Shown: positions 49,964 through 64,000, numbered from the stretch's first letter. The stretch is DNA of 64,000 nucleotides from a bacterium (GCA_018825665.1 JAHJEG010000044.1:1-64000), one strand, 5' to 3'. The notes: generated from the letters alone by a model not told the origin. Translations and numbers: made by a program.

Positions 49964-51217
49964 TTAGGAAAAGGTATCAGAGAAAAGGTTCTCTGACCAT
50001 AAAAACATCTTAGTATAGTTGCTAGTATCTGATGGACCTGCTGCTAAATTGGCAATAACCATGCTCTGAGTACTAGAATCATATTTAAAGACCGCTGATA
50101 GCCACGAAGCTTCTGTGGCCGATGTCGGGCTGTAGCAAGCCGAGTTAGTCTTAGGTGAAGCATATAAGGCAACTCCGTTTAAAGTTCTTAAGATTGCATC
50201 AGCACACACTTTGGCTTCAGAGTTTCCAATGTGTCCGGCTTTAGGCTGTCCTGTACCTTGCGAATCACCGATGATATAAATACCGCTTGCAACTAATGAC
50301 TCATAGCTCAAAGGATTGATGGGTGCCCAATTTCCAGAGTTTACTTCTGCGGTAAAGATAATAGGAGCTGCTTTTTGGTTTGGTATGACATTCAAAACCG
50401 TTGATGTTATAGTTTTTGTTTCACCACCTTCGGTATAGGTTAAAGTTTTAGTTGTGTCATCAACTGCGGTGATCGTTGTGCTTGGTTTGTACTCTACACC
50501 ATATTCTGCAAATTTTGCACCAAAAGTATCTGCTTCGACCGTAATATTTGCATTGGCATCGAGTACAATTACTTTGCAGTCGTCAAAACCTTTGGTGTTT
50601 TTGAGATAATCAGCCACCACACAAGCTCTCTCATAAGGACCAGGAGGACAACGGTAAGGTGCAGCTGGAATGGTCATAGTAAAGGTATCGCCATTTTTCA
50701 TGGCATCAATCTGTGCTTTTAGCAAATTGGTCTGCTCTCCTGCTTTCCAAGCGTGAGGTACTTCGGTTATATCATAGTCATTCACTTTTATAAAGTCAAT
50801 ACCTGCTGCCAAGACCAATTTGTCATACTTTACACTGTTTCCATTTGCCAAAGCAAGGGTTTGATTGGTTTTATCAACGCTATCTACCGTACTATGAATT
50901 ATGCTGATGCCATACTTACTATTCAGGTCTGTATAGGTAAAGGATAAATCCGAAGTTGTTTTCTGAGAGTTAAGAACCAGATTGCTAAGTATTGGCGATA
51001 CATAGGTCGGATTTGTCTCTATGATGGTGACATTCACACTGCCTCCACCCCACATCTTTAGATACTTTGCACAGGTCGCCCCTGAAAATCCACCGCCAAT
51101 TACCACAACATGCGGAGTGACGGCATCAGCCGCCATACTTGGACTAATAGCAAAGAGTGAGCTTACGCCTACAAACTTCATGAAGTTTCGTCTTGAATTT
51201 GAATGGGTTGTTTTCAT
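49964..51217 (-). CDS. fccB: Flavocytochrome c sulfide dehydrogenase, flavoprotein subunit
   Basis: 417 aa FAD protein that oxidises sulfide in the periplasm. A twin-arginine signal (SRRNFMKFVG, R9-R10) shows export of the folded protein. The FAD-binding VVVIGGGFSGATCAKYL, the redox segment CPPGPYERAC, GIYIIGDSQG, and the C-terminal FCSD flavin-binding region are all present. The usual partner is a small c-type cytochrome, and the gene 12 bases upstream encodes one. It is flanked downstream by a terminator and gene remnants. Confidence 0.9.
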   Translation of the reverse strand: MKTTHSNSRRNFMKFVGVSSLFAISPSMAADAVTPHVVVIGGGFSGATCAKYLKMWGGGSVNVTIIETNPTYVSPILSNLVLNSQKTTSDLSFTYTDLNSKYGISIIHSTVDSVDKTNQTLALANGNSVKYDKLVLAAGIDFIKVNDYDITEVPHAWKAGEQTNLLKAQIDAMKNGDTFTMTIPAAPYRCPPGPYERACVVADYLKNTKGFDDCKVIVLDANANITVEADTFGAKFAEYGVEYKPSTTITAVDDTTKTLTYTEGGETKTITSTVLNVIPNQKAAPIIFTAEVNSGNWAPINPLSYESLVASGIYIIGDSQGTGQPKAGHIGNSEAKVCADAILRTLNGVALYASPKTNSACYSPTSATEASWLSAVFKYDSSTQSMVIANLAAGPSDTSNYTKMFLWSENLFSDTFS

Positions 51218-51229
51218 TTACTATCCTTT

Positions 51230-52183
51230 TTAATCGTTTGTTTTAAGTGTTTTGAGCCAGTTACCGATAAGTATAATCTCATCACTGGTATATCCGAGAG
51301 CCTGAGCATGCATAATCGGTTCATCATCTTGGATTTCATTAAGAAGGTCATCTTCACCTGCAATGGAGTCCCACTCATTTACAGAGACACCATTTGTTCC
51401 GTGACACTGGGCACATTGTGAACCTAATAGTCTTCCTGCGTCAGCTGTGTATAGAGTAGGTAAAACTATATTTGCAGTGGTATTATCATTATCGTCATCA
51501 TCTTCTTCATCATGAGTACCGTCATTGTCATCATCTACATCACTATCATCGTCGATACCATCACCATCGGAATCATTATCGTCATGATCATAAATATCAT
51601 AAATGCCATCATTGTCATCATCATCATCATAATAATTGCTGATGCCATCGCCATCATCATCCTCATAGACATCTACTAATCCATCATCATCATTATCCAG
51701 AGGATTTTCAAGTTCAATGACAATGGATGTACCATTAATGTCAATGCTTAGTACATTATCTGACACATGGTCTCCATTGACATCGATGACCTGAGTATAA
51801 TCCATTTCAAGAGGGATGTAACCAAGATCTATATCTTTTGCTGCTTTAAAGAGGGTACTGCTTGTATCGGGTGTGAACATACCGATTTGGGTAACCACTC
51901 TGCTCACATTGTTATCTTCATTTGTCGTCATGACCAAAGAGCAGCTAAGTGTATTGGGAATTTCTAGTTCAAACGGGTGTTCAGCGGTACCGTTGTCGGT
52001 GGACTTTACAAAGTAGTAACTTCCATCCGTACAGAATGCTTCGATAAGTGTTCCTGGAACCGTACCACTGATTGTTGAAGTGAGGGGGGTGCTAGAGGTG
52101 CTAGTGGTAGATGATCCGCCTCCACATCCCGCCAAAATAAGTGCAGATGCCACAGCCGAGAGTTTCCATAGAATTGTTTTCAT
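51230..52183 (-). CDS. Cytochrome c lipoprotein with Asp-rich calcium repeats
   Basis: 317 aa. Lipobox LAGC (C20), a domain of unknown type (~35-160), an extremely acidic stretch of about residues 163-233 with D-x-D-x-D-G units like thrombospondin type-3 calcium repeats, then a C-terminal monoheme cytochrome (CAQCH at 257-261; likely axial M291 in MHAQALGYTSDEI). The heme domain looks like the FccA type. It is probably the electron acceptor of FccB, held to the membrane by lipid and a calcium-stiffened stalk. Confidence 0.8.
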   Translation of the reverse strand: MKTILWKLSAVASALILAGCGGGSSTTSTSSTPLTSTISGTVPGTLIEAFCTDGSYYFVKSTDNGTAEHPFELEIPNTLSCSLVMTTNEDNNVSRVVTQIGMFTPDTSSTLFKAAKDIDLGYIPLEMDYTQVIDVNGDHVSDNVLSIDINGTSIVIELENPLDNDDDGLVDVYEDDDGDGISNYYDDDDDNDGIYDIYDHDDNDSDGDGIDDDSDVDDDNDGTHDEEDDDDNDNTTANIVLPTLYTADAGRLLGSQCAQCHGTNGVSVNEWDSIAGEDDLLNEIQDDEPIMHAQALGYTSDEIILIGNWLKTLKTND

Positions 52184-53780: not shown

Positions 53781-55061
53781 CTAATTATATGTTCCCGATC
53801 GTACACATCGAACCTTATAGTATGGTTCTGTTGTATCTTTGTCGTAGGGATTGATATCTACCTCTATGTTCTGAGTGATTTTTTCATCAAGAAATCCACA
53901 TGCATTGAGCTGTAGATTTTTTTGGTAGCAGTTCTCGCCATAGCATAGATTGGATGATGAGTGAAATTTATTTGCACTTTTATAGATAAATTCATCATTG
54001 ACGGCATAGGTACTGTTTTTGGAAAAATCAACAATTGTGGTAAGTTCACTTATTGTAGGTACTCTCCAGTCTTTATAGCTTGCTAAACTTAAGTCACTGC
54101 AATACTTTACAGCCTCGCCCCATTGGTATTTTTTTTCTATGACATCTTGATTGTCTTGCCACATTAAATTTGTAGCCTTATCGACTACAACGCCTCTGTT
54201 ATGATCTCTTTCAAAGGTAAAGCCCTTTATCTCTTCCCCTCTTACACATTTAATATATGAATCTTCTATCTCATCTATGATAGGCGGGTGCAGAGGTATC
54301 TCCTGATCTATAAAGGGTCCGTCCACCGATGTAATGGCTCCGGTATCGTCAAAGAGAGTATACGTAGTGATGGTGGTAAGTATATTGTGTATTTGGTCAT
54401 AATATATTTTTGAATCAGAAATATAAAGTAAAACACCTTTTGAGTCGTATTTTGGGACTTGGCTGATTCCGACCAGGGTTCCGTAGTCGGAGTTGCTTGC
54501 ATTGACATCATAGACTTTGTCTATTTTGGAAATATTGAAATCTTTTTCTCCAAATCCCATAACATATGTCTTGAATGTATCTGAGACTTCGTTATTTGTA
54601 AAGTAAAATCCATTGGGCATATTCGAGAATTCGCTTTCTCTTAAATCTGTTCCGGAATTCAGGTTTAACAAGGTCATTGTTTCATGAAGATTCGGAAGTC
54701 TCCAGTCAGTATATCCGGCTAATGTTAAAGCGTCACAATACTCTTTGGCGGCGCTCATGTTATGCTCAAGAACAACTTCATCATCTTGCCAGTATAAGTC
54801 ATAGTTTGCATTATAAACTGTTCCGTCAGGGTTTTTTTTGAAATCCCGGATATAACCATTTTTGTAAAATCCGTCATCATAATAAAAAGTAGAGGGATTA
54901 GTAGCAATATCTTCAAAAACAAATACATCTTTTTGACCTGTTTTTAACGGATATTTTAAAGAAGTAGAGGCAGCATTATCAGAGAGATCTTTATTTGAAG
55001 ATGCAGATTCTTGACAAGCACTCAAAAAAATAATGGCAAATATCAGTAAAACAGTTTTCAT
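53781..55061 (-). CDS. DUF1566 (Lcl C-terminal domain) lipoprotein
   Basis: 426 aa. Lipobox LSAC (C16). Two copies of the DUF1566/Lcl_C domain, marked by LYWQDDEVVLEHNMSAAKEY with YTDWRLPNLHE and by LMWQDNQDVIEKKYQWGEAV with YKDWRVPTISE. This C-type-lectin-like fold is common in surface proteins and may bind ligands. Last gene of the cellulose-type operon, 2 bases after the SH3-like gene. Confidence 0.8.
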   Translation of the reverse strand: MKTVLLIFAIIFLSACQESASSNKDLSDNAASTSLKYPLKTGQKDVFVFEDIATNPSTFYYDDGFYKNGYIRDFKKNPDGTVYNANYDLYWQDDEVVLEHNMSAAKEYCDALTLAGYTDWRLPNLHETMTLLNLNSGTDLRESEFSNMPNGFYFTNNEVSDTFKTYVMGFGEKDFNISKIDKVYDVNASNSDYGTLVGISQVPKYDSKGVLLYISDSKIYYDQIHNILTTITTYTLFDDTGAITSVDGPFIDQEIPLHPPIIDEIEDSYIKCVRGEEIKGFTFERDHNRGVVVDKATNLMWQDNQDVIEKKYQWGEAVKYCSDLSLASYKDWRVPTISELTTIVDFSKNSTYAVNDEFIYKSANKFHSSSNLCYGENCYQKNLQLNACGFLDEKITQNIEVDINPYDKDTTEPYYKVRCVRSGTYN

Positions 55062-55063
55062 GA

Positions 55064-55549
55064 CTATTGGGGATCTTTAAAAACTATTTTAGCGCTTTCT
55101 GGTGAAAAGTACTCATCATATACAGAAGCATTGATGGTATGTACAGAATGAACCGTATCTGTCTGATTTGTAACTTCGATGATAGTAATGTCTTCATGGA
55201 AAGAAGTATTATTCTCTTTTTCAACCGATGTATTTTGAACAAAAGTTGTATTATTGTCTTTGAGGGTAAGATCTTCTTTTACCATCGGAGTTTCAAACTT
55301 TGGAACATTCAGTCTCAGTAGATCTTTTTTAACATAGCCATTCTTTGTCTTACACCATTTATACTGATTGCAGTAATCAATCTGTATAACGTCGCCTTTG
55401 TTAAAATATCTCAGTCTTTTTTCAGAACACTCATAAGGTTTTTTATATAAGTCTGCATTGTCTGATACAACATGTCCGAATATCCGTTGCTTATCCGTTT
55501 GGGCACTTAAAGAAAGCGCAATCAAACTAATTAAAATTACAAATTTCAT
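55064..55549 (-). CDS. Exported SH3-like protein
   Basis: 161 aa. Signal peptide, then a bacterial SH3-like domain (IFGHVVSDNADLYKKP, YKWCKTKNGYVKKDLL) and a Thr/Asn-rich tail. Such domains often bind cell-wall or glycan. Ten bases from the previous gene, 2 from the next: part of the operon. Confidence 0.65.
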   Translation of the reverse strand: MKFVILISLIALSLSAQTDKQRIFGHVVSDNADLYKKPYECSEKRLRYFNKGDVIQIDYCNQYKWCKTKNGYVKKDLLRLNVPKFETPMVKEDLTLKDNNTTFVQNTSVEKENNTSFHEDITIIEVTNQTDTVHSVHTINASVYDEYFSPESAKIVFKDPQ

Positions 55550-55559
55550 AATCTTTCTC

Positions 55560-56132
55560 CTACTGCTGTGTTAATAAATACATCATTTCACAAGTCATTG
55601 GAAGCTTTTTAGCATAAGAACCTTCTATGATGCCTGTTTTTAAGTCAATAAGTTTGACAAAGACTATTATCTCTTCATCCGTATATGTATATGTGCCGAC
55701 GACTGCTCTGTTTAATTCGAAACTATCAGTTCTGAGCAATTTTATATTTCTTGATAATACTCTGAGCCCATTTCCTGAGATTTCAAAATATTTTGAAATC
55801 TCAGCTTCAACTACTTTGGCGCTGTGCTTTTGTATTAGAGCATTTTTGATACTGTTGGACAAAATATATCCAAGCTTTGAATAGTTTTGAAGTGATGTCA
55901 AATCGACAAAGTCCGTAACAATAAAGTTCTTTGGATCAATATCGGCTGTTTTAAACAGCGCATCAACCGCATTGTCGGCTAGTGCGATATAGTTAACATT
56001 ATAATCATAATATTCTTTAATGCCACGATTGACCTCGCACTCTTTTTTAGCATAATCCCTTTGGTTGACTATTGTACCGCTACACCCACTTAAAATTAAG
56101 GCTATAAGTATTATAAAGCTTGTATTTCTCAA
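55560..56132 (-). CDS. FlgO-like lipoprotein (second copy)
   Basis: 190 aa. Lipobox LSGC (C17). The body (FIVTDFVDLTSLQNYSKLGY, then ELNRAVVGTYTYTDEEIIVF) matches FlgO-family outer-membrane proteins related to the CsgG/TolB N-domain fold. It overlaps the upstream paralogue by 4 bases. In an operon for polysaccharide export it is more likely an outer-membrane accessory than a flagellar part. Confidence 0.7.
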   Translation of the reverse strand: MRNTSFIILIALILSGCSGTIVNQRDYAKKECEVNRGIKEYYDYNVNYIALADNAVDALFKTADIDPKNFIVTDFVDLTSLQNYSKLGYILSNSIKNALIQKHSAKVVEAEISKYFEISGNGLRVLSRNIKLLRTDSFELNRAVVGTYTYTDEEIIVFVKLIDLKTGIIEGSYAKKLPMTCEMMYLLTQQ

Positions 56133-56710
56133 TTTAAATCCTTCCAGCAGTATTCACTTTTAGAACAATTAGACGGGATTAACTGCACTCTGAACTTCTC
56201 TTTATCTTTTATAATTTTCGGCTTTGAAGAACTTTTCAAGGGGATATATGCACTTGCAGCAGAAACCAACTGATTATTGTCATTTTCTACTATTCTTACA
56301 TTGACGATAATGCTGTCATCCATTCTTGAATATGTGCCGACCAAGACCAAAACATTTGTATTTTCTATCGACTGAAGTCTGGCTCTGTTTAATTTAAACT
56401 CGCCTTTTTGTGTTTTAGTTACTACTTCATCACCTCTGTATTCTATAACATTATAACCTTTTTGCTTCATCTGTGTCATTAATGATTCAGAAAAAAGTCT
56501 GCCAAAGTTTGAACTCTCTTTGAAGTTATTCAAATCAACCAAAGATGTCAAGATAAGTTTGTGGCTGCCATAGCCGATTATATTGGCAGAAAGCTCGTCT
56601 GCAACAATACTGACGGCACTTGGCAAGGTTGGTGCGTAATGTAACGATTTTTTTTGACAGCCTGTAAGCGAAAGTAGCACAAACAGTAAGAGTAATATTT
56701 TTTTCATCAT
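56129..56710 (-). CDS. FlgO-like lipoprotein (first copy)
   Basis: 193 aa. Lipobox LTGC (C18). Body (KLILTSLVDLNNFKESSNFG, then NVLVLVGTYSRMDDSIIVNV) is a paralogue of the next gene with the same fold and order of motifs. It starts 10 bases after the bcsC-like stop. Confidence 0.7.
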   Translation of the reverse strand: MMKKILLLLFVLLSLTGCQKKSLHYAPTLPSAVSIVADELSANIIGYGSHKLILTSLVDLNNFKESSNFGRLFSESLMTQMKQKGYNVIEYRGDEVVTKTQKGEFKLNRARLQSIENTNVLVLVGTYSRMDDSIIVNVRIVENDNNQLVSAASAYIPLKSSSKPKIIKDKEKFRVQLIPSNCSKSEYCWKDLN

Positions 56711-56720
56711 TTAATTCCTT

Positions 56721-59700
56721 TTATTTTATAATCTGGTCGACTCTGTGATTTAACCTGAAACTATTAAAAGTTTTATAAGTTTTTGGCTCAAATCTATATA
56801 CTAGGGCGAAAGAAGCCTGTTGTACTTCATAGCCGTTCATTTTTTCCATGGAAAATCCTGATATAAGGTCTAAATTTTGATTTAGATTATATCCTAACTG
56901 TATCGCTGCCTTATAGGTAATACCGCCGTCACTGTAACCATTTTGTGTACCAATCAAAGTGATGTCATTTGCAGACAAAGGAAACTTATCTGCATCTTCG
57001 ACAATAAAACCTTCAAAGCCCAATGATAATTTTGCCTGATAGTAAAAGTCATTGTTGACAATATCACCAAATTGGGTAAACACTGAACCCAGCCAAAAAT
57101 CCTGCGGACTAAAGTATCCTCCATGTCCGTAGGTAAAGAGGTTGGTGTTTTTTTCATAGCTGTCGTAAGCAATCAATGCTCCGATATCTACATAAGAGAT
57201 TGACTCCACTTTTGGATGGTATATGGCAGTAACTGTTGATTTGAACTCACTGTTGTCTATCGTGTTTAAACCGAAGATTTGCGGATAGTAGCCGATATTC
57301 AATGATAAGATTACATTTTCATCATAACTTACACCAGCTTCAAATCCTCTCTTTACAACTCTTCCCCAATTCACTTCCAATGAATCTTTGACAGCTTTTT
57401 CACCAACGAATGACAACATAGTCTCATCAATTTCTTTTTGCTCAAACTTAAGATTGAATGTCAACTTGTCATATGAAACAAATCCTGCAAGAAGCCAGGT
57501 AAATTCAGGTGTTATTTTGGCACCAACCGGAGTAAGACCAATTTGTGCTTTAATATTTTTATAGTCTATTCCAAGTTTGGGCATAAAGCCTATATCACTG
57601 GTCAAGTCATCATCCTGCGTTGTTGAATTGAGTCCAAAGTCTAAGTAGGAGCCGCCATTATCACTTAAATAACCGTTATAAAGATATAACAAATCTCCAT
57701 CGAAATATATATGATAATCTTTTTTCATATTATAATAGTCATAATCTACAGGAACGAAATATTTGTCAAAACGATTTTTTCCATTTACACCACTTTGTGA
57801 TTGAAAAAACATCCCCACAGAAGCAGAGTTCTCATATGCTTCTTTTGTAAAGCTTTTATTGATAGAAACAAGCATTGAATCTCTTTTTTTAGATTCAGGC
57901 AGTTTTAATAGTATTTTTTTCGCATCATCTTGTTTATGTAAATCGATATACAAAGATGAGATTAAAAAAGCATCTTTTTCATTGTCTATGACTCTGATTC
58001 TGTTTAAAGCTTCAATCGCTCTGTCATGTTCATTATTTTGATAACAGCTAAGAGCGTATCCATAGATATCCTCTGTATTTTCACCAAAAATTAGATTGAT
58101 TTTTGCAAATTTTTCTTTTGCAGCATCATATTTTTGAAGTGAATATGCGCACCATCCGCCCATACGATATACATCTATATCATGTAGTTCATTCTCAATT
58201 AAATTGGAATATTTATAACATCTGGAATAAATGTTGTTTTTATAGTAACTGTGTAATCTGTCTTTTTGATAATCTGCTTTAAATGCATCCAGCTCTTTTG
58301 TTTTGAGCGGATATGTTGTATAGGCATACTCCAGTTCAGAATCCACTTCATCGTCTTTCATAAAATCTTTGAGGGTATAAAGAAGAATAAGCTCCAGGTT
58401 GAAATCATTACTCTTATATTTTTTTGCTTCCTTGTATGCTCTAATAGCTTCAGCATTGCCTTTATTTTTGTAAATATTTCCAATATCCAGATAAAATGAT
58501 GATTTTATTTCATTGTTTTGTACTTTTTCTATGTAGGAAACAGCACCGTTTATATTATTCTCTTGGGCGTATACATAAGCACTACATCTATAATAAAGTT
58601 CTTTTTGATACTCTTTGGTCATATTGGAATCATTGAGCCTTTGGGCACAACTCTTATAGTCTTTATGCTGGAATTCATACAACGACAGGGTATATTTTGC
58701 CTCTGTTGATTCTTTATCAAGCAATAATATTTCTGATGCCACATTATGTGCATCATCATACTGCTTTAAGAATATGAATATCTGCATTTGTCTTTTTAAT
58801 ACATCAACATTTTGAGGATATAAACTTATAAGATAATTTACTATATTCGCAGCCTCTTTATAGTCTTTGGCTTTTATGTAGTCATCTATTGTTAAAAAAG
58901 TTTCTAAAAGATATGGATTTGTTAAACCTTTTTTATTTTTGGTTGTATCAAACCAGTATTTGGCAGTATTCAACTGTTGCATCTTTATAGCGCTTCGCAT
59001 AGCATGTACAGACAATTCATCCGTTTTTTCGACTTCATACAGTTTCTCAGCAAGATAAAGTGACTGTTCGTACATTTTAAGATTGAAATAACTATACATC
59101 ATTCCGCTATAGCAGCTATAGTCATTTTTTATGTTACACGATTCTTTAAAAAACTTCAAAGCATCTTTTGGACTTTCTTCTACGAGTTTCCAGCCATTTT
59201 CCAATGCCCGATTGTACAAAATATCATTATACAATTCTCTTACTTTTGTAGAATACTTTAAATACCCATATAACTTATCCAGTGCTTCTTGGTATTTTTT
59301 TTCTTCATAATATTGTGAAGATATTGACAATATATTTGATATCAGTAGTTCCATTGCCTTTTTTTCTTTGTAAAAATAAGGGGATAATATGACATTCGCC
59401 TCCTGATATTTTTTGACTTGAACCAAGTCAAGAGCTTTTAAATAGTCAATATCAAATATTTTATTAGTCAATTTATAATTATTAGCCAGGGCAATTGCTT
59501 CTTCATACTTTTTTATTTCTATTAAATCAGATATCTCTTTTTCATTGATAATAGTGTGAAGTTTATGCTTTTTTAACAAATAGTTGTCTACGATTTCATG
59601 TGCTTTTGTATAGTTTTTTTTGTTTAATTGTTTATACATAAACGTAGTAGCTATATCTTTGTACAGTTTATTCGCTTTTTTGTTTTTTCTGTAAATATTT

Positions 59701-60194
59701 AAAACTTTCAAGGCTTTTTCATAATGCCTGTTCTTCATCAAAGCAAGGGCATAGGCATAAGCATGCTCATAGTTGTTTTCTATATTGTAGTTATATTCAA
59801 ATATTTCTAAGGCTTTTTTATATTCTTCTCTGTCAAATGCAGCATATCCAAGATAAAACTCATTTAAACTTTTGTATTTTCTCTCTTCTTGAGCCTCTTT
59901 ATAGTCCTTATTGATAATGACATAGGAAATATTTTTACTCTTAAATTTTGCAATATTATCTTGCATCTCTTCTGTGGTGTTTGAATCATTACATCTGAGT
60001 GATAACATATCATTTTTTTTGAGTATATAACAATTAAATCCATTGATCTTCAGTCTCAGTGCTTTTTGCTGAACAATATCCATATAGTTGCTTTTAGCGT
60101 TAAATACCTCAAATGTAACATCTACCTCTTTGGAAAGGGAAAGAGTATTAATTAAAAGTAGTAAAAAGATAAATCGAATATGAGTAGTAATCAT
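56721..60194 (-). CDS. bcsC: BcsC-like TPR and beta-barrel exporter
   Basis: 1157 aa, the size of BcsC. Signal peptide, then more than 15 TPR-like repeats across residues ~100-800, then a C-terminal outer-membrane barrel (from about residue 830, with DYHIYFDGDLLYLYNG and YLDFGLNS) like BcsC and PgaA. It would carry the glucan across periplasm and outer membrane. The start overlaps bcsZ by 47 bases. Close homologues of the TPR part are not recognisable by eye. Confidence 0.82.
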   Translation of the reverse strand: MITTHIRFIFLLLLINTLSLSKEVDVTFEVFNAKSNYMDIVQQKALRLKINGFNCYILKKNDMLSLRCNDSNTTEEMQDNIAKFKSKNISYVIINKDYKEAQEERKYKSLNEFYLGYAAFDREEYKKALEIFEYNYNIENNYEHAYAYALALMKNRHYEKALKVLNIYRKNKKANKLYKDIATTFMYKQLNKKNYTKAHEIVDNYLLKKHKLHTIINEKEISDLIEIKKYEEAIALANNYKLTNKIFDIDYLKALDLVQVKKYQEANVILSPYFYKEKKAMELLISNILSISSQYYEEKKYQEALDKLYGYLKYSTKVRELYNDILYNRALENGWKLVEESPKDALKFFKESCNIKNDYSCYSGMMYSYFNLKMYEQSLYLAEKLYEVEKTDELSVHAMRSAIKMQQLNTAKYWFDTTKNKKGLTNPYLLETFLTIDDYIKAKDYKEAANIVNYLISLYPQNVDVLKRQMQIFIFLKQYDDAHNVASEILLLDKESTEAKYTLSLYEFQHKDYKSCAQRLNDSNMTKEYQKELYYRCSAYVYAQENNINGAVSYIEKVQNNEIKSSFYLDIGNIYKNKGNAEAIRAYKEAKKYKSNDFNLELILLYTLKDFMKDDEVDSELEYAYTTYPLKTKELDAFKADYQKDRLHSYYKNNIYSRCYKYSNLIENELHDIDVYRMGGWCAYSLQKYDAAKEKFAKINLIFGENTEDIYGYALSCYQNNEHDRAIEALNRIRVIDNEKDAFLISSLYIDLHKQDDAKKILLKLPESKKRDSMLVSINKSFTKEAYENSASVGMFFQSQSGVNGKNRFDKYFVPVDYDYYNMKKDYHIYFDGDLLYLYNGYLSDNGGSYLDFGLNSTTQDDDLTSDIGFMPKLGIDYKNIKAQIGLTPVGAKITPEFTWLLAGFVSYDKLTFNLKFEQKEIDETMLSFVGEKAVKDSLEVNWGRVVKRGFEAGVSYDENVILSLNIGYYPQIFGLNTIDNSEFKSTVTAIYHPKVESISYVDIGALIAYDSYEKNTNLFTYGHGGYFSPQDFWLGSVFTQFGDIVNNDFYYQAKLSLGFEGFIVEDADKFPLSANDITLIGTQNGYSDGGITYKAAIQLGYNLNQNLDLISGFSMEKMNGYEVQQASFALVYRFEPKTYKTFNSFRLNHRVDQIIK

Positions 60195-61152
60195 TTTTAT
60201 TTTTCCCTTTTAAACTTTTAATTTCATTTGTAAATGAAGACATATTATTGAAATGTTTATCCAGCATATTATAGATACTTAAATGGGCAAAAGAATAGTT
60301 AAAAAGGCTGATTGTTCCATTTTTTAAGTCACTTGTACCAAATACTGAATCAACACTTTTCATCGAGTTTACATATTGGATATACGGCTCCAACAACTTA
60401 TCTTTATCCTTAATGTCGCTTTTTAAAATATTAAATGGGATTCTTAAAGCATCATACCCAAATGAATTATTTCTTGTCAGTTCTATTTTGAGTGTTCTTT
60501 TGTCTATTCTTATCCAGTCAGAATGTAATTTTAATGGAGAAAATTTTGCCTCGTTCAAAAGATTTATGCCGTCATTTTTTAATCTCTTCCAAGTGGTATC
60601 ATTGTCATATTGGACAAATTTGTCAAATATAAAAAAAAGGTAATAAGATAAATTTATTTCAAAATAACTTTCCGTATTGAAGCCTGTTTTGGCCGGCAGT
60701 AAGTAAAGCCTGCCTTTGTGGTTCATAATCAGATGTTGTTTAATGTTTTTGATTAAACTCAAAGCTTCTTGCTTATAATGGATTTGATTGGTTTTTTCAT
60801 ACATCAGCAGATTATCATAGGCTATCCATAAATCTCCGTCACTGGCATTATTTTTATCTAAAATATGCCAACTTTCATTTTTATCCTTACCCCATTTCCA
60901 GCTAATCAGTCCAAAATCATTGGTTGTCAGGTTGTCTTTATACCATTTGTAAATTTTGTCAAATGTTTTAATATCATCGTTTTTTAATGATAAATATAGG
61001 GCATATCCTATCGATTCACTGTGTGTAATATCACTATTTACCCTATCTATTACTCTACCATCATGAGCAACAAAAAGTGATTTGTACTCACCCCAGTTTG
61101 CTTGCACAACAGTATTCATAATAAAAAGAATAAAAAGCAGTTTACTCAGCAT
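60148..61152 (-). CDS. bcsZ: Glycoside hydrolase family 8 (BcsZ-like endoglucanase)
   Basis: 334 aa periplasmic endo-beta-1,4-glucanase. Signal peptide, catalytic acid E46 (HSESIGYAL) and the D-x-D segment D105/D107 (ASDGDLWIAY), both as in BcsZ. It trims or edits the nascent chain. Overlaps bcsB by 11 bases and bcsC by 47. Confidence 0.88.
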   Translation of the reverse strand: MLSKLLFILFIMNTVVQANWGEYKSLFVAHDGRVIDRVNSDITHSESIGYALYLSLKNDDIKTFDKIYKWYKDNLTTNDFGLISWKWGKDKNESWHILDKNNASDGDLWIAYDNLLMYEKTNQIHYKQEALSLIKNIKQHLIMNHKGRLYLLPAKTGFNTESYFEINLSYYLFFIFDKFVQYDNDTTWKRLKNDGINLLNEAKFSPLKLHSDWIRIDKRTLKIELTRNNSFGYDALRIPFNILKSDIKDKDKLLEPYIQYVNSMKSVDSVFGTSDLKNGTISLFNYSFAHLSIYNMLDKHFNNMSSFTNEIKSLKGKNKNDYYSYSIYLFTTFN

Positions 61153-64000
61153 CTTTATGATGTTCCTCTTTGAATTTATTTAAAAATGTTCTGACAATCC
61201 AAACAAATAGGATTAGTAAAATAAAGAAAACAATCATATATCTTACAGGATGCGCACCGATAGTCAGAGACATAGTCTCTAGCCAGCTAAGATGTGACAA
61301 TATATATTTGTCTTTAATATTATATGCGACTCCCTCTTCATCAATGTAATCATAAATAACGGTGTCTCCGAGGATGTTGTTTCTATTTTTGTATTTAAAG
61401 ATAGAAACAACCCCTTTATCCAAGCAAGAGGGATTGTTCGCACCAAATAACAATATTGTTTTGTCTTTATCATAAGGGGATCTTGCCATTTGCATAATAA
61501 TTGAAGTATCAGCCAAATTTGTTTCTTGCATGGAACTGATAAATCTATACTTTTTAAGTCTATCTTCATTTAAGATATCTTTGTGCTCTATAAATCTGTT
61601 TATATATGGATAATCTTTCTTCATAATCTCTTTGTCAAAAACGACTGGAGCATCCTTGCTTAATTCTTGAAGTTTATCATCATATATAGTTCCAAATACG
61701 ATTATATTTTTACCTTTATCTTCTTCACTTAGTTTAGTTGTAATATTCAAATAATTAGGATAAGAATCTAGTTCCTGAGTTAAGAAAAAGATGAAGTTCA
61801 TAGCACTGGAAATAGTTTCATCATCATTATTTGTAAGATATATTACGGTATCTTGTAGATCCGGAAATACAGAATATGGGTATTGCGCACTAGTAATAAA
61901 CTGCATATAAGGCAATTCAACCCACTGTTTAGCTTTTGGCAATATAAAATAAGAATCATCCATAACAGACGCAACAAGATTTTCTGTATTATATACTTCA
62001 CAGGCTCCTTTTTTTAACGGAACAAGTGAAAAATCCAATCTTAATTCATTGTGTCCTTTACCGATTAAATACGCTGGCATTTCAGAGATACTGTCAAAAT
62101 TAAAGAGTTTATTTGCTGCAATGTCAATATTTGAAATATGAGCACTTTTTGAAATATCAATTTGTTTGGCAAATATTTCATTCATGAATATATTAACAAC
62201 TGAATCTTCATGTATAACAGTAGGAAATACATAGTGCAGGTGCGCATCGATTCTGTCTTTCGTATCAAAATAGTTATCAGGATATACCTTAAATTTAAGA
62301 TTTATCTTGGGTGGATACCATCCTTTTAAAAATGTAGTTTCATATCCAAGTTCTTTAAAGTAAATCTTTTTATCTATTGGCACAAATCCTTTTGCGCTGT
62401 ATGCTTCTGCAGGTTCAGGAATCGTTACACTTTTGATATCAAGACCTTGTCTTTTATATTTGTCAAGATCATCTTTGTAAAGGGCATAAATACACTCTTT
62501 TTGTTTTTTTGCATCTTCTGGAGCAATAATGATTATAGCTTTGTCAACACTATTGGGATTTTGAATTACATTTATATCATGAGCTAGTTTATCTTCAATA
62601 TAGAGACTCTCAGTAGCTCTGTCCTTTTTATGCTGTAAACTGAATTTATATAGTTTATTGGCACTTATAGAAGTAAGAGAATGATCAAACATATAAAACT
62701 GATCAATGTATCCACTGAAGTTTAACTGCTCACCTGAGCCAAAACTTCCTATATAAGCGTCTTTTGAAAGTTTTGCATTATCAGAAATAAAATGACTGTA
62801 AACCTGCTTCAGGTTTAGAGATTGTCCATTTATTGTAATGGAGTTTCTCTCAACAACACCGTCATGAAACGTAGCAACCACATGATACCATTCGTTTTTG
62901 TCAAATTTGTATTTCGCTCCGTATAAATCTTTATTGGCTGTATTGAATCCAATATATCCGTTATACATCATCAATGCGTAGGTGTCAAATCCAAACAGTA
63001 TTGATCTTTTTACTTCTTTTGGATTGAACCAAAATGCAACGGTGGCCGCATCGGAATCTTTTATTTTTAAATCCCTTAAAGCAACTTTGGACTTGTTGAG
63101 ATAAAGACTTTTATCAAAAAAAGCACCTTTTTCAACTATCTCAACATCACTGTCTGGTTCAATTTTGGCAAATTCGGATTTATTTAACCAAGCGTTACAT
63201 GTATTTGAATTAAAAAACATGGAAAGAGAAGGTTTTTCATCGCTTATATAGCTGTCACTAAGACCGGTTAGTATCTCTTTTGCTTTTTCTTTGCTTGAAA
63301 TTATTACATTATGATTTGACATATCCAGAGCGTTGGATACCTTTATTTCTTCCAGTCTATATTTTAAATGGGTTGAGGCGACAGAGCTGAATAAAGAAAA
63401 ATTCTTTAAACTTTCTTCATCTTTTTTGTCCATTACATAGTTGAGCGGGGTAACAGAGTATTGTTTATCGTCAAATACATTAGACTGAATGGAACTTATT
63501 TGCTCTTTTATAGGTTTTGGACGAACCAATAGTTCTAAATAGCTATGAGCCAAGTCGATATCGCTCCATAATGACGTATGTGCACCATCCTCGCAATCGT
63601 AAGTGTAATGCTGTATGGCTTCAAATGTCAACACATTGTTTTCATAGAATAACGCTTGGTCAATATCAAATTTAATTCCACTGTTTTGATTGTCAAATAT
63701 TTTAAATTGAGTGACTACAACATCATTAAAAGAAACAACGGCTGAAGAAAGATCTTTTAATAGTAATATGGACGGAGTATATTTTATATACCCTTTGGCA
63801 TTTAAAATTTCCCACTTATTAGGCAGTGGAAAAGCTAAATTGAAATATCCGTCTATACCTCTTACTCTTTCAATATTTTCGTAAGAATTAAGATAATTAA
63901 AATGAATCCTTAGTATGGTATTGCCATTTTCTAAATCAATCCTTTGAATTGGATCCTGTTTGACATTTTTTCCGTAAAGACTTAAAAAAGCCATGAGTAG
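61142..64000 (-). CDS. bcsB: BcsB-like cellulose synthase subunit with LamG-like insert (partial)
   Basis: At least 952 codons; the frame is open to the window edge, and the first ATG seen (63994) lies inside a hydrophobic signal sequence. BcsB features: HYTYDCEDGAHTSLWSDIDL, repeated carbohydrate-binding/flavodoxin-like domains, and a C-terminal membrane helix (MIVFFILLILFVWIVRTFL). Residues ~285-450 form a LamG/concanavalin-like insert (VAFWFNPKEVKR, NEWYHVVATFHDG, YIGSFGSGEQLNFSGYIDQF). This accounts for a length ~200 aa over E. coli BcsB. Confidence 0.85.
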   Translation of the reverse strand, partial: LLMAFLSLYGKNVKQDPIQRIDLENGNTILRIHFNYLNSYENIERVRGIDGYFNLAFPLPNKWEILNAKGYIKYTPSILLLKDLSSAVVSFNDVVVTQFKIFDNQNSGIKFDIDQALFYENNVLTFEAIQHYTYDCEDGAHTSLWSDIDLAHSYLELLVRPKPIKEQISSIQSNVFDDKQYSVTPLNYVMDKKDEESLKNFSLFSSVASTHLKYRLEEIKVSNALDMSNHNVIISSKEKAKEILTGLSDSYISDEKPSLSMFFNSNTCNAWLNKSEFAKIEPDSDVEIVEKGAFFDKSLYLNKSKVALRDLKIKDSDAATVAFWFNPKEVKRSILFGFDTYALMMYNGYIGFNTANKDLYGAKYKFDKNEWYHVVATFHDGVVERNSITINGQSLNLKQVYSHFISDNAKLSKDAYIGSFGSGEQLNFSGYIDQFYMFDHSLTSISANKLYKFSLQHKKDRATESLYIEDKLAHDINVIQNPNSVDKAIIIIAPEDAKKQKECIYALYKDDLDKYKRQGLDIKSVTIPEPAEAYSAKGFVPIDKKIYFKELGYETTFLKGWYPPKINLKFKVYPDNYFDTKDRIDAHLHYVFPTVIHEDSVVNIFMNEIFAKQIDISKSAHISNIDIAANKLFNFDSISEMPAYLIGKGHNELRLDFSLVPLKKGACEVYNTENLVASVMDDSYFILPKAKQWVELPYMQFITSAQYPYSVFPDLQDTVIYLTNNDDETISSAMNFIFFLTQELDSYPNYLNITTKLSEEDKGKNIIVFGTIYDDKLQELSKDAPVVFDKEIMKKDYPYINRFIEHKDILNEDRLKKYRFISSMQETNLADTSIIMQMARSPYDKDKTILLFGANNPSCLDKGVVSIFKYKNRNNILGDTVIYDYIDEEGVAYNIKDKYILSHLSWLETMSLTIGAHPVRYMIVFFILLILFVWIVRTFLNKFKEEHHKDAE

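Follow-up and report, generated by a model that had tools for sequence, protein, structure and literature searches.

Passage of cellulose across the outer membrane is known mainly from BcsC of Escherichia coli. In the Pel system, a ring of twelve PelC lipoproteins sits on the periplasmic rim of PelB, an exporter whose barrel and tetratricopeptide repeats (TPRs) resemble those of BcsC; this ring has been called unique to Pel, with BcsC and PgaA managing without added lipoproteins (PMC12141448). Among cellulose operons, type III Bcs is defined by having no BcsD, BcsE or BcsG (PMC11470070), and a survey of cellulose operons used four core genes, its main text containing neither FlgO nor lipoproteins (PMC7112194). 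Here we describe a bacterial bcs operon in which bcsC is followed by four further genes for exported proteins. It lies on the minus strand of GCA_018825665.1 JAHJEG010000044.1:1-64000 (the window, that is, the whole stretch analysed: the first 64,000 bases of a 68,195-base contig) and reads, from its head, spor-like, bcsA, bcsB, bcsZ, bcsC, flgO1, flgO2, sh3-like and lcl. The last four genes, termed the tail, very probably belong functionally to the bcs operon, and may represent an unrecognised kind of cellulose export gate.

The tail follows bcsC (56721..60194), which encodes a TPR scaffold and outer-membrane barrel of 1,157 amino acids (TPR families and BCSC_C, 7.3e-39). Genes flgO1 (56129..56710) and flgO2 (55560..56132) encode a pair of FlgO-domain lipoproteins (PF17680, 1.3e-29 and 2.3e-19) scoring 103 and 70 bits, respectively, against a curated cut-off of 22.6. 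The sh3-like gene (55064..55549) encodes a secreted SH3b-like protein, assigned by its model and a fold match to 9ovi, with a C-terminal half predicted to be disordered, and lcl (53781..55061) encodes a lipoprotein with two Lcl_C (DUF1566) domains (PF07603, 6.5e-32 in two stretches; 110.7 bits against a curated cut-off of 34.9). A preliminary description of the window had listed bcsB, bcsZ and bcsC followed on the same strand by four exported genes, with junctions of -4 to +10 bases and three lipoboxes. All of these genes are present on the minus strand where it placed them, the gaps from bcsC through flgO1, flgO2 and sh3-like to lcl are +10, -4, +10 and +2 bases, and three tail proteins carry the lipoboxes LTGC (FlgO1), LSGC and LSAC, the SH3-like protein having an ordinary signal peptide. 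On the minus strand from bcsC to the end of the tail, no terminator-like site was found apart from one inside lcl, and promoter-like sites in the operon region were no more frequent than in shuffled sequence.

BcsB was found in 12 of the 228 genomes of the family, including 6 of the 135 in the genus, and the bcs neighbourhood was read in all 12. The tail lies directly after bcsC in seven of these: the window's own genome (G000), G056, G044 and G483 in the genus, and G532, G537 and G538 in two other genera (in G483 the contig stops inside lcl, with the remainder of the gene on another contig). It is absent from four, G495 and G492 of the same genus and G370 and G566 of a further genus, and is therefore not essential to the operon type; in the remaining genome, G533, the operon ends at a contig end. 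This neighbourhood search had been set beforehand as the test that could refute the preliminary description, and it returned the tail beside bcsC in six genomes other than the window's own, across three genera, ruling out a tail confined to one genus. The tail is kept in at least seven species, in the same order and with tight junctions. Its downstream neighbours are acpS in G000, an oxidoreductase gene and ATP-binding cassette (ABC) genes in G056 and a recB-like gene in G044, and the tail is therefore kept while its surroundings are not. FlgO2 is the best-conserved tail protein, at 63–86% identity in six relatives (78–86% within the genus and 63–64% across genera), compared with across-genera identities of 35–39% for BcsC and 66–70% for BcsA. 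Estimates of the ratio of non-synonymous to synonymous change (dN/dS) are low for the tail genes where synonymous change is unsaturated, and are indicative only, since synonymous sites are saturated in many comparisons.

A contact between tail proteins and BcsC would predict a less constrained outer-membrane half of BcsC in genomes without the tail. Tail-bearing G044 and tail-less G495 are 61 and 62% identical to G000 in BcsZ and about equally distant from it in BcsC residues 1–550 too, but residues 551–1157, which cover the final TPRs and the barrel, diverge far more from G000 in G495 than in G044. At sites identical in the six tail-bearers G000, G056, G483, G532, G537 and G538, changes unique to G495 outnumber those unique to G044 by 34:8 in residues 551–1157, or about fourfold (p = 7e-5; p values for this comparison are somewhat flattering because the boundary at residue 550 was set once the regional identities were known). 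The corresponding counts are 6:8 in BcsC residues 1–550, 6:3 in BcsZ and 17:12 in BcsB, the last from a slightly smaller conserved set. This altered outer-membrane half where the tail is missing is suggestive of a link between BcsC and the tail.

A model of FlgO2 (AlphaFold2, predicted local distance difference test (pLDDT) 80) was compared with known folds by structural Z scores and a Foldseek search. LpoB scored highest (Z 10.6), followed by PelC (7.6), TolB (7.2), CsgG (6.7), PelC of the PelBC complex 9h80 (6.5), FlgT (6.2) and the flagellar LPHT ring (6.0). The match to PelC has a root-mean-square deviation (rmsd) of 3.9 over 107 residues. By this model FlgO2 falls in the LpoB/TolB-N/CsgG fold class, several outer-membrane members of which form rings. 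FlgO1 matches solved FlgO (9yfg and 9yds, E 3e-11), and these solved relatives are large homo-assemblies, 9yds comprising 58 chains of a single sequence. Gly122 and Arg128, the sole invariant residues, both lie in the least confident stretch of the model (114–134), which would fit a contact that becomes ordered only in an assembly.

As the best explanation of the whole, which we hold tentatively and at rather less than an even chance, we propose a bcs operon with inherited outer-membrane partners, in which a mixed FlgO ring at BcsC is tied to the wall and accompanied by surface display. Gene content, conservation, co-inheritance, the FlgO2 fold class and the altered half of BcsC are what we observe of it; its predicted parts are the existence and position of a ring on BcsC, attachment to peptidoglycan and anchoring at the surface. 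On this proposal, the outer-membrane end of the spor-bcsA-bcsB-bcsZ-bcsC operon would have gained an inherited partner set. At the periplasmic face of the outer membrane, FlgO1 and FlgO2 would assemble into a ring, probably containing both, that encircles the BcsC barrel rim and the last TPR repeats. It would play for BcsC the part that PelC plays for PelB, holding the exporter and the emerging glucan in place and stabilising them. Anchorage to peptidoglycan would come from the SH3b-like protein and from the SPOR-like protein encoded at the head of the operon, and the Lcl_C lipoprotein, joined in two other genera by an Ig-repeat lipoprotein, would retain the polymer at the surface or present it there. 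A PelC-like ring is the simplest reading because the FlgO pair follows bcsC, FlgO2 is the best kept of the tail proteins and the matching half of BcsC appears tied to the tail. A ring of FlgO1 and FlgO2 at BcsC is, by analogy, a fair possibility short of a probability; a mixed PelC-like ring of the two on BcsC, which would give this cellulose exporter an outer-membrane lipoprotein ring of its own, is possible if somewhat doubtful. The preliminary description had proposed an outer-membrane and surface extension around BcsC: the extended operon is indeed conserved, but the predicted fold favours the periplasmic face of the outer membrane rather than the surface for the FlgO pair, and the proposed extension at the surface is just one reading among several.

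Several observations weigh against a ring of this kind. LpoB is a better structural match to FlgO2 than PelC, a Z score near 7 can reflect a common fold only, and identity to PelC is only ~15%. FlgO occurs alone in many relatives that have no exporter, so a ring on BcsC is not the general job of FlgO; likewise, some bcs operons have no tail, so BcsC can work without one. The contrast between the two halves of BcsC is modest (Fisher p = 0.014), and because it falls to 39:14 and 12:10 (Fisher p = 0.17) when G532 is dropped from the conserved set, it is suggestive, not firm. The BcsC signal also comes from one tail-less lineage, and recombination at the 3' end of bcsC accompanying tail loss could look alike.

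The lipoproteins might instead form a surface-anchoring or adhesion set that sits off the exporter, with displayed Lcl_C and Ig-like domains attaching the cell to its cellulose or to surfaces; the operon would then only ensure joint expression under cyclic diguanosine monophosphate (c-di-GMP). Relatives of Lcl_C include adhesins (weak NCBIfam matches, Lsa25 and the FimD tip adhesin), and the tail of the two other genera closes with a fifth gene, for an 813–828-amino-acid lipoprotein of Big_2 Ig-like repeats (for example, L127:11523-13964), which is absent beside the operon in G000. Full-length Lcl_C proteins of the operon type occur in only the four tail-bearing genomes among the 135 of the genus, all with bcs. 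We consider an adhesion set unlikely, as it leaves unexplained both the conservation of FlgO2, the best-kept tail protein at 63% across genera or about the level of BcsA, and the change in the outer-membrane half of BcsC after tail loss.

LpoB is an activator of peptidoglycan synthesis, and many bacterial SH3 relatives bind cell walls. The SH3-like protein of the tail has a confident fold only in residues 22–82 (pLDDT ~90), which match the bacterial SH3-like 9ovi (Z 9.7, rmsd 2.0 over 63 residues). The SH3-like label in the preliminary description is therefore backed by predicted fold but not by sequence, the window protein having no significant match and one orthologue a weak one (SH3_4, E 0.036). 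Of 397 genomes sampled from the phylum, just G000 and G056 have full-length copies, further matches being weak and mostly partial. Peptidoglycan binding by this protein is predicted from its modelled fold. A peptidoglycan module would take the FlgO proteins as LpoB-like lipoproteins that extend inwards from the outer membrane to enter the wall, opening or reinforcing it in concert with the SH3b-like and SPOR-like proteins to let the TPR scaffold of BcsC through. That LpoB heads the structural matches and that SH3b-like and SPOR-like proteins share the operon both fit such a module, but the SPOR-like gene also occurs in tail-less G492 and G495 and so is not tail-specific, and there is no peptidoglycan synthase or hydrolase within the operon; we judge it quite unlikely. 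Separately, a SPOR domain at the N terminus of BcsC that seemed likely by eye was dropped after profile comparison with the SPOR-like protein of the operon (E 0.47).

The FlgO pair itself appears older than its association with bcs. Of 298 genomes sampled from the phylum, 25 encode FlgO-domain proteins, as do 27 of the 135 in the genus. In one large family the pair lies near recJ and pyrG with no cellulose genes alongside, and G461, of the same genus as the window, has a stand-alone pair whose FlgO2 is 51% identical. In a tree of 34 FlgO proteins, a branch supported at 100/98 divides all first genes, joined by four unassigned solo proteins, from all second genes; the operon therefore took in an old two-gene module with the order and identity of both genes kept. 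FlgO1 and FlgO2 are, on this phylogenetic evidence, an old paralogous pair, alone elsewhere in the order and captured by this operon. Tail loss in G495 is the simpler account of its gene content because in the BcsA tree it clusters with G000 and G056 (98/99), separately from the other genera that bear the tail. It is improbable that the tail genes are passengers, general envelope proteins co-transcribed with bcs by chance in a few related species, since the stand-alone pairs in other families and in G461 that would suit this idea are set against strict order, overlapping junctions, co-inheritance over three genera, unlike flanks in the three species compared and low dN/dS where unsaturated.

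Two other origins were rejected. For plasmid-borne horizontal spread, the matches to FlgO2 were only two distant Aeromonas records (24–27% identity); a contig search with FlgO1 returned one relative, a metagenome-assembled genome from a marine rock biofilm that is apparently G056. For a phage or defence origin, there were no PADLOC matches, and PHROG matches were for the Lcl_C protein only. FlgO genes also form arrays elsewhere, with three in a row in G209 (L056:8843-10766) and four in a row in G330 (L057), and G063 has five copies.

The synthase side of the operon is that of a c-di-GMP-type cellulose synthase by sequence, having a GT2/QxxRW BcsA with PilZ together with BcsB. In the locus extended past the window edge (L003), the head of the operon comprises a gene for a 265-amino-acid SPOR-like secreted protein, bcsA (738 amino acids) and the 5' end of bcsB; neither the first two genes nor the laminin-G domain described below had been seen in the preliminary description, whose assignment to a cellulose-type operon agrees with the Pfam matches to BcsB, GH8 and BCSC_C and with the BcsA motifs. 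BcsA has intact DDG, DTDH (DxD), TED and QRVRW (QxxRW) motifs and, in a PilZ domain also detected by Pfam (1.6e-7), RRSIR (RxxxR) and DISEGG (DxSxxG). A BcsA with intact catalytic and PilZ motifs makes beta-glucan under c-di-GMP control, and this one should therefore do so. bcsB (61142-64018, of which 61142..64000 lies in the window; Pfam BcsB, 2.7e-85) overshoots the window by 18 bases, is a complete open reading frame of 958 amino acids in L003, and encodes a protein alignable with E. coli BcsB structures. bcsZ (60148..61152) encodes a GH8 endoglucanase (Glyco_hydro_8, 1.4e-47) and overlaps bcsC by 47 bases (60148..60194), a length identical in four species of the genus that perhaps reflects translational coupling. 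BcsG (PF11658) was not found in the genome but was found in an E. coli control; BcsD and BcsE are not among the operon genes, the genome at large not having been searched for either. As far as tested, the operon fits the definition of a type III-like Bcs.

Between the N- and C-terminal halves of BcsB lies a laminin-G/ConA-like domain (62672..63091, minus strand; Laminin_G_3, 2.8e-12, residues 304–443 of the window translation). It is also found in G483, G492, G495, G532 and, by length, G056, and is absent from G370 and G538. We ruled it out as part of the tail system: G538 (and, by BcsB length, G537) has the tail without the insert, and G495 the insert without the tail. No paper with 'BcsB' and 'laminin G' together was found in the open-access literature. 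In G044, stop codons break the bcsB frame near a contig end (L016:1-193), upstream of residue 292, as an assembly error or a real break. In G096, from another family of the order, broken-up pieces of bcsB, bcsZ and bcsC (L017:6765-13294) represent a decaying cellulose operon.

Two further loci lie near the operon. A divergent gene upstream (L003:14134-15195) encodes a secreted protein with two SPOR-like stretches by eye; it is ~640 amino acids at full length, has no Pfam match and is kept in G056, G495, G532, G533 and G537. At 51230-52183, also by eye only, is a lipoprotein gene whose product has a CxxCH motif like that of cytochrome c and a highly acidic run rich in Asp; it adjoins a gene for a flavocytochrome-like oxidoreductase (49964-51217).

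The combination of genes was unfamiliar to the preliminary description from any described operon type, and we likewise found no description of it, nor any paper with 'FlgO' and 'cellulose synthase' together, in the open-access literature; because the search covered open-access papers only, novelty is probable but not certain. With a conserved pair of PelC-fold-class lipoproteins encoded directly after bcsC, the claim that PelC is unique to Pel (PMC12141448) becomes testable. If true, a ring on BcsC would overturn the lipoprotein ring as a Pel-only feature and define a further Bcs subtype, would link polysaccharide export with the flagellar FlgO ring family, and would give a biofilm-forming group its own cellulose machinery to study.

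Compared with flagellar FlgO (PF17680; 9yfg, 9yds), the tail proteins are alike in scoring above the family cut-off, in being lipoproteins and in having homo-oligomeric relatives, but their genes have bcs neighbours, with flagellins on other contigs. They share with the stand-alone FlgO1-FlgO2 pairs of other families in the order both paralogous clades and the same gene order, whereas those pairs have no neighbouring cellulose genes. As with PelB-PelC (PMC12141448), a gene for a TPR and barrel exporter stands beside genes for lipoproteins of the PelC/LpoB/CsgG fold class; here, in contrast, the synthase is of the cellulose type, the operon is bcs and not pel, there are two different lipoproteins instead of one, these belong to the FlgO sequence family and not to PelC, and the ring is predicted by analogy. 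Finally, the operon resembles type III Bcs (PMC11470070) in having bcsA, bcsB and bcsZ without BcsD, BcsE or BcsG in the operon, and differs from it in having BcsC and not BcsK, a SPOR-like gene at the head, a laminin-G insert in BcsB and a lipoprotein tail of four to five genes.

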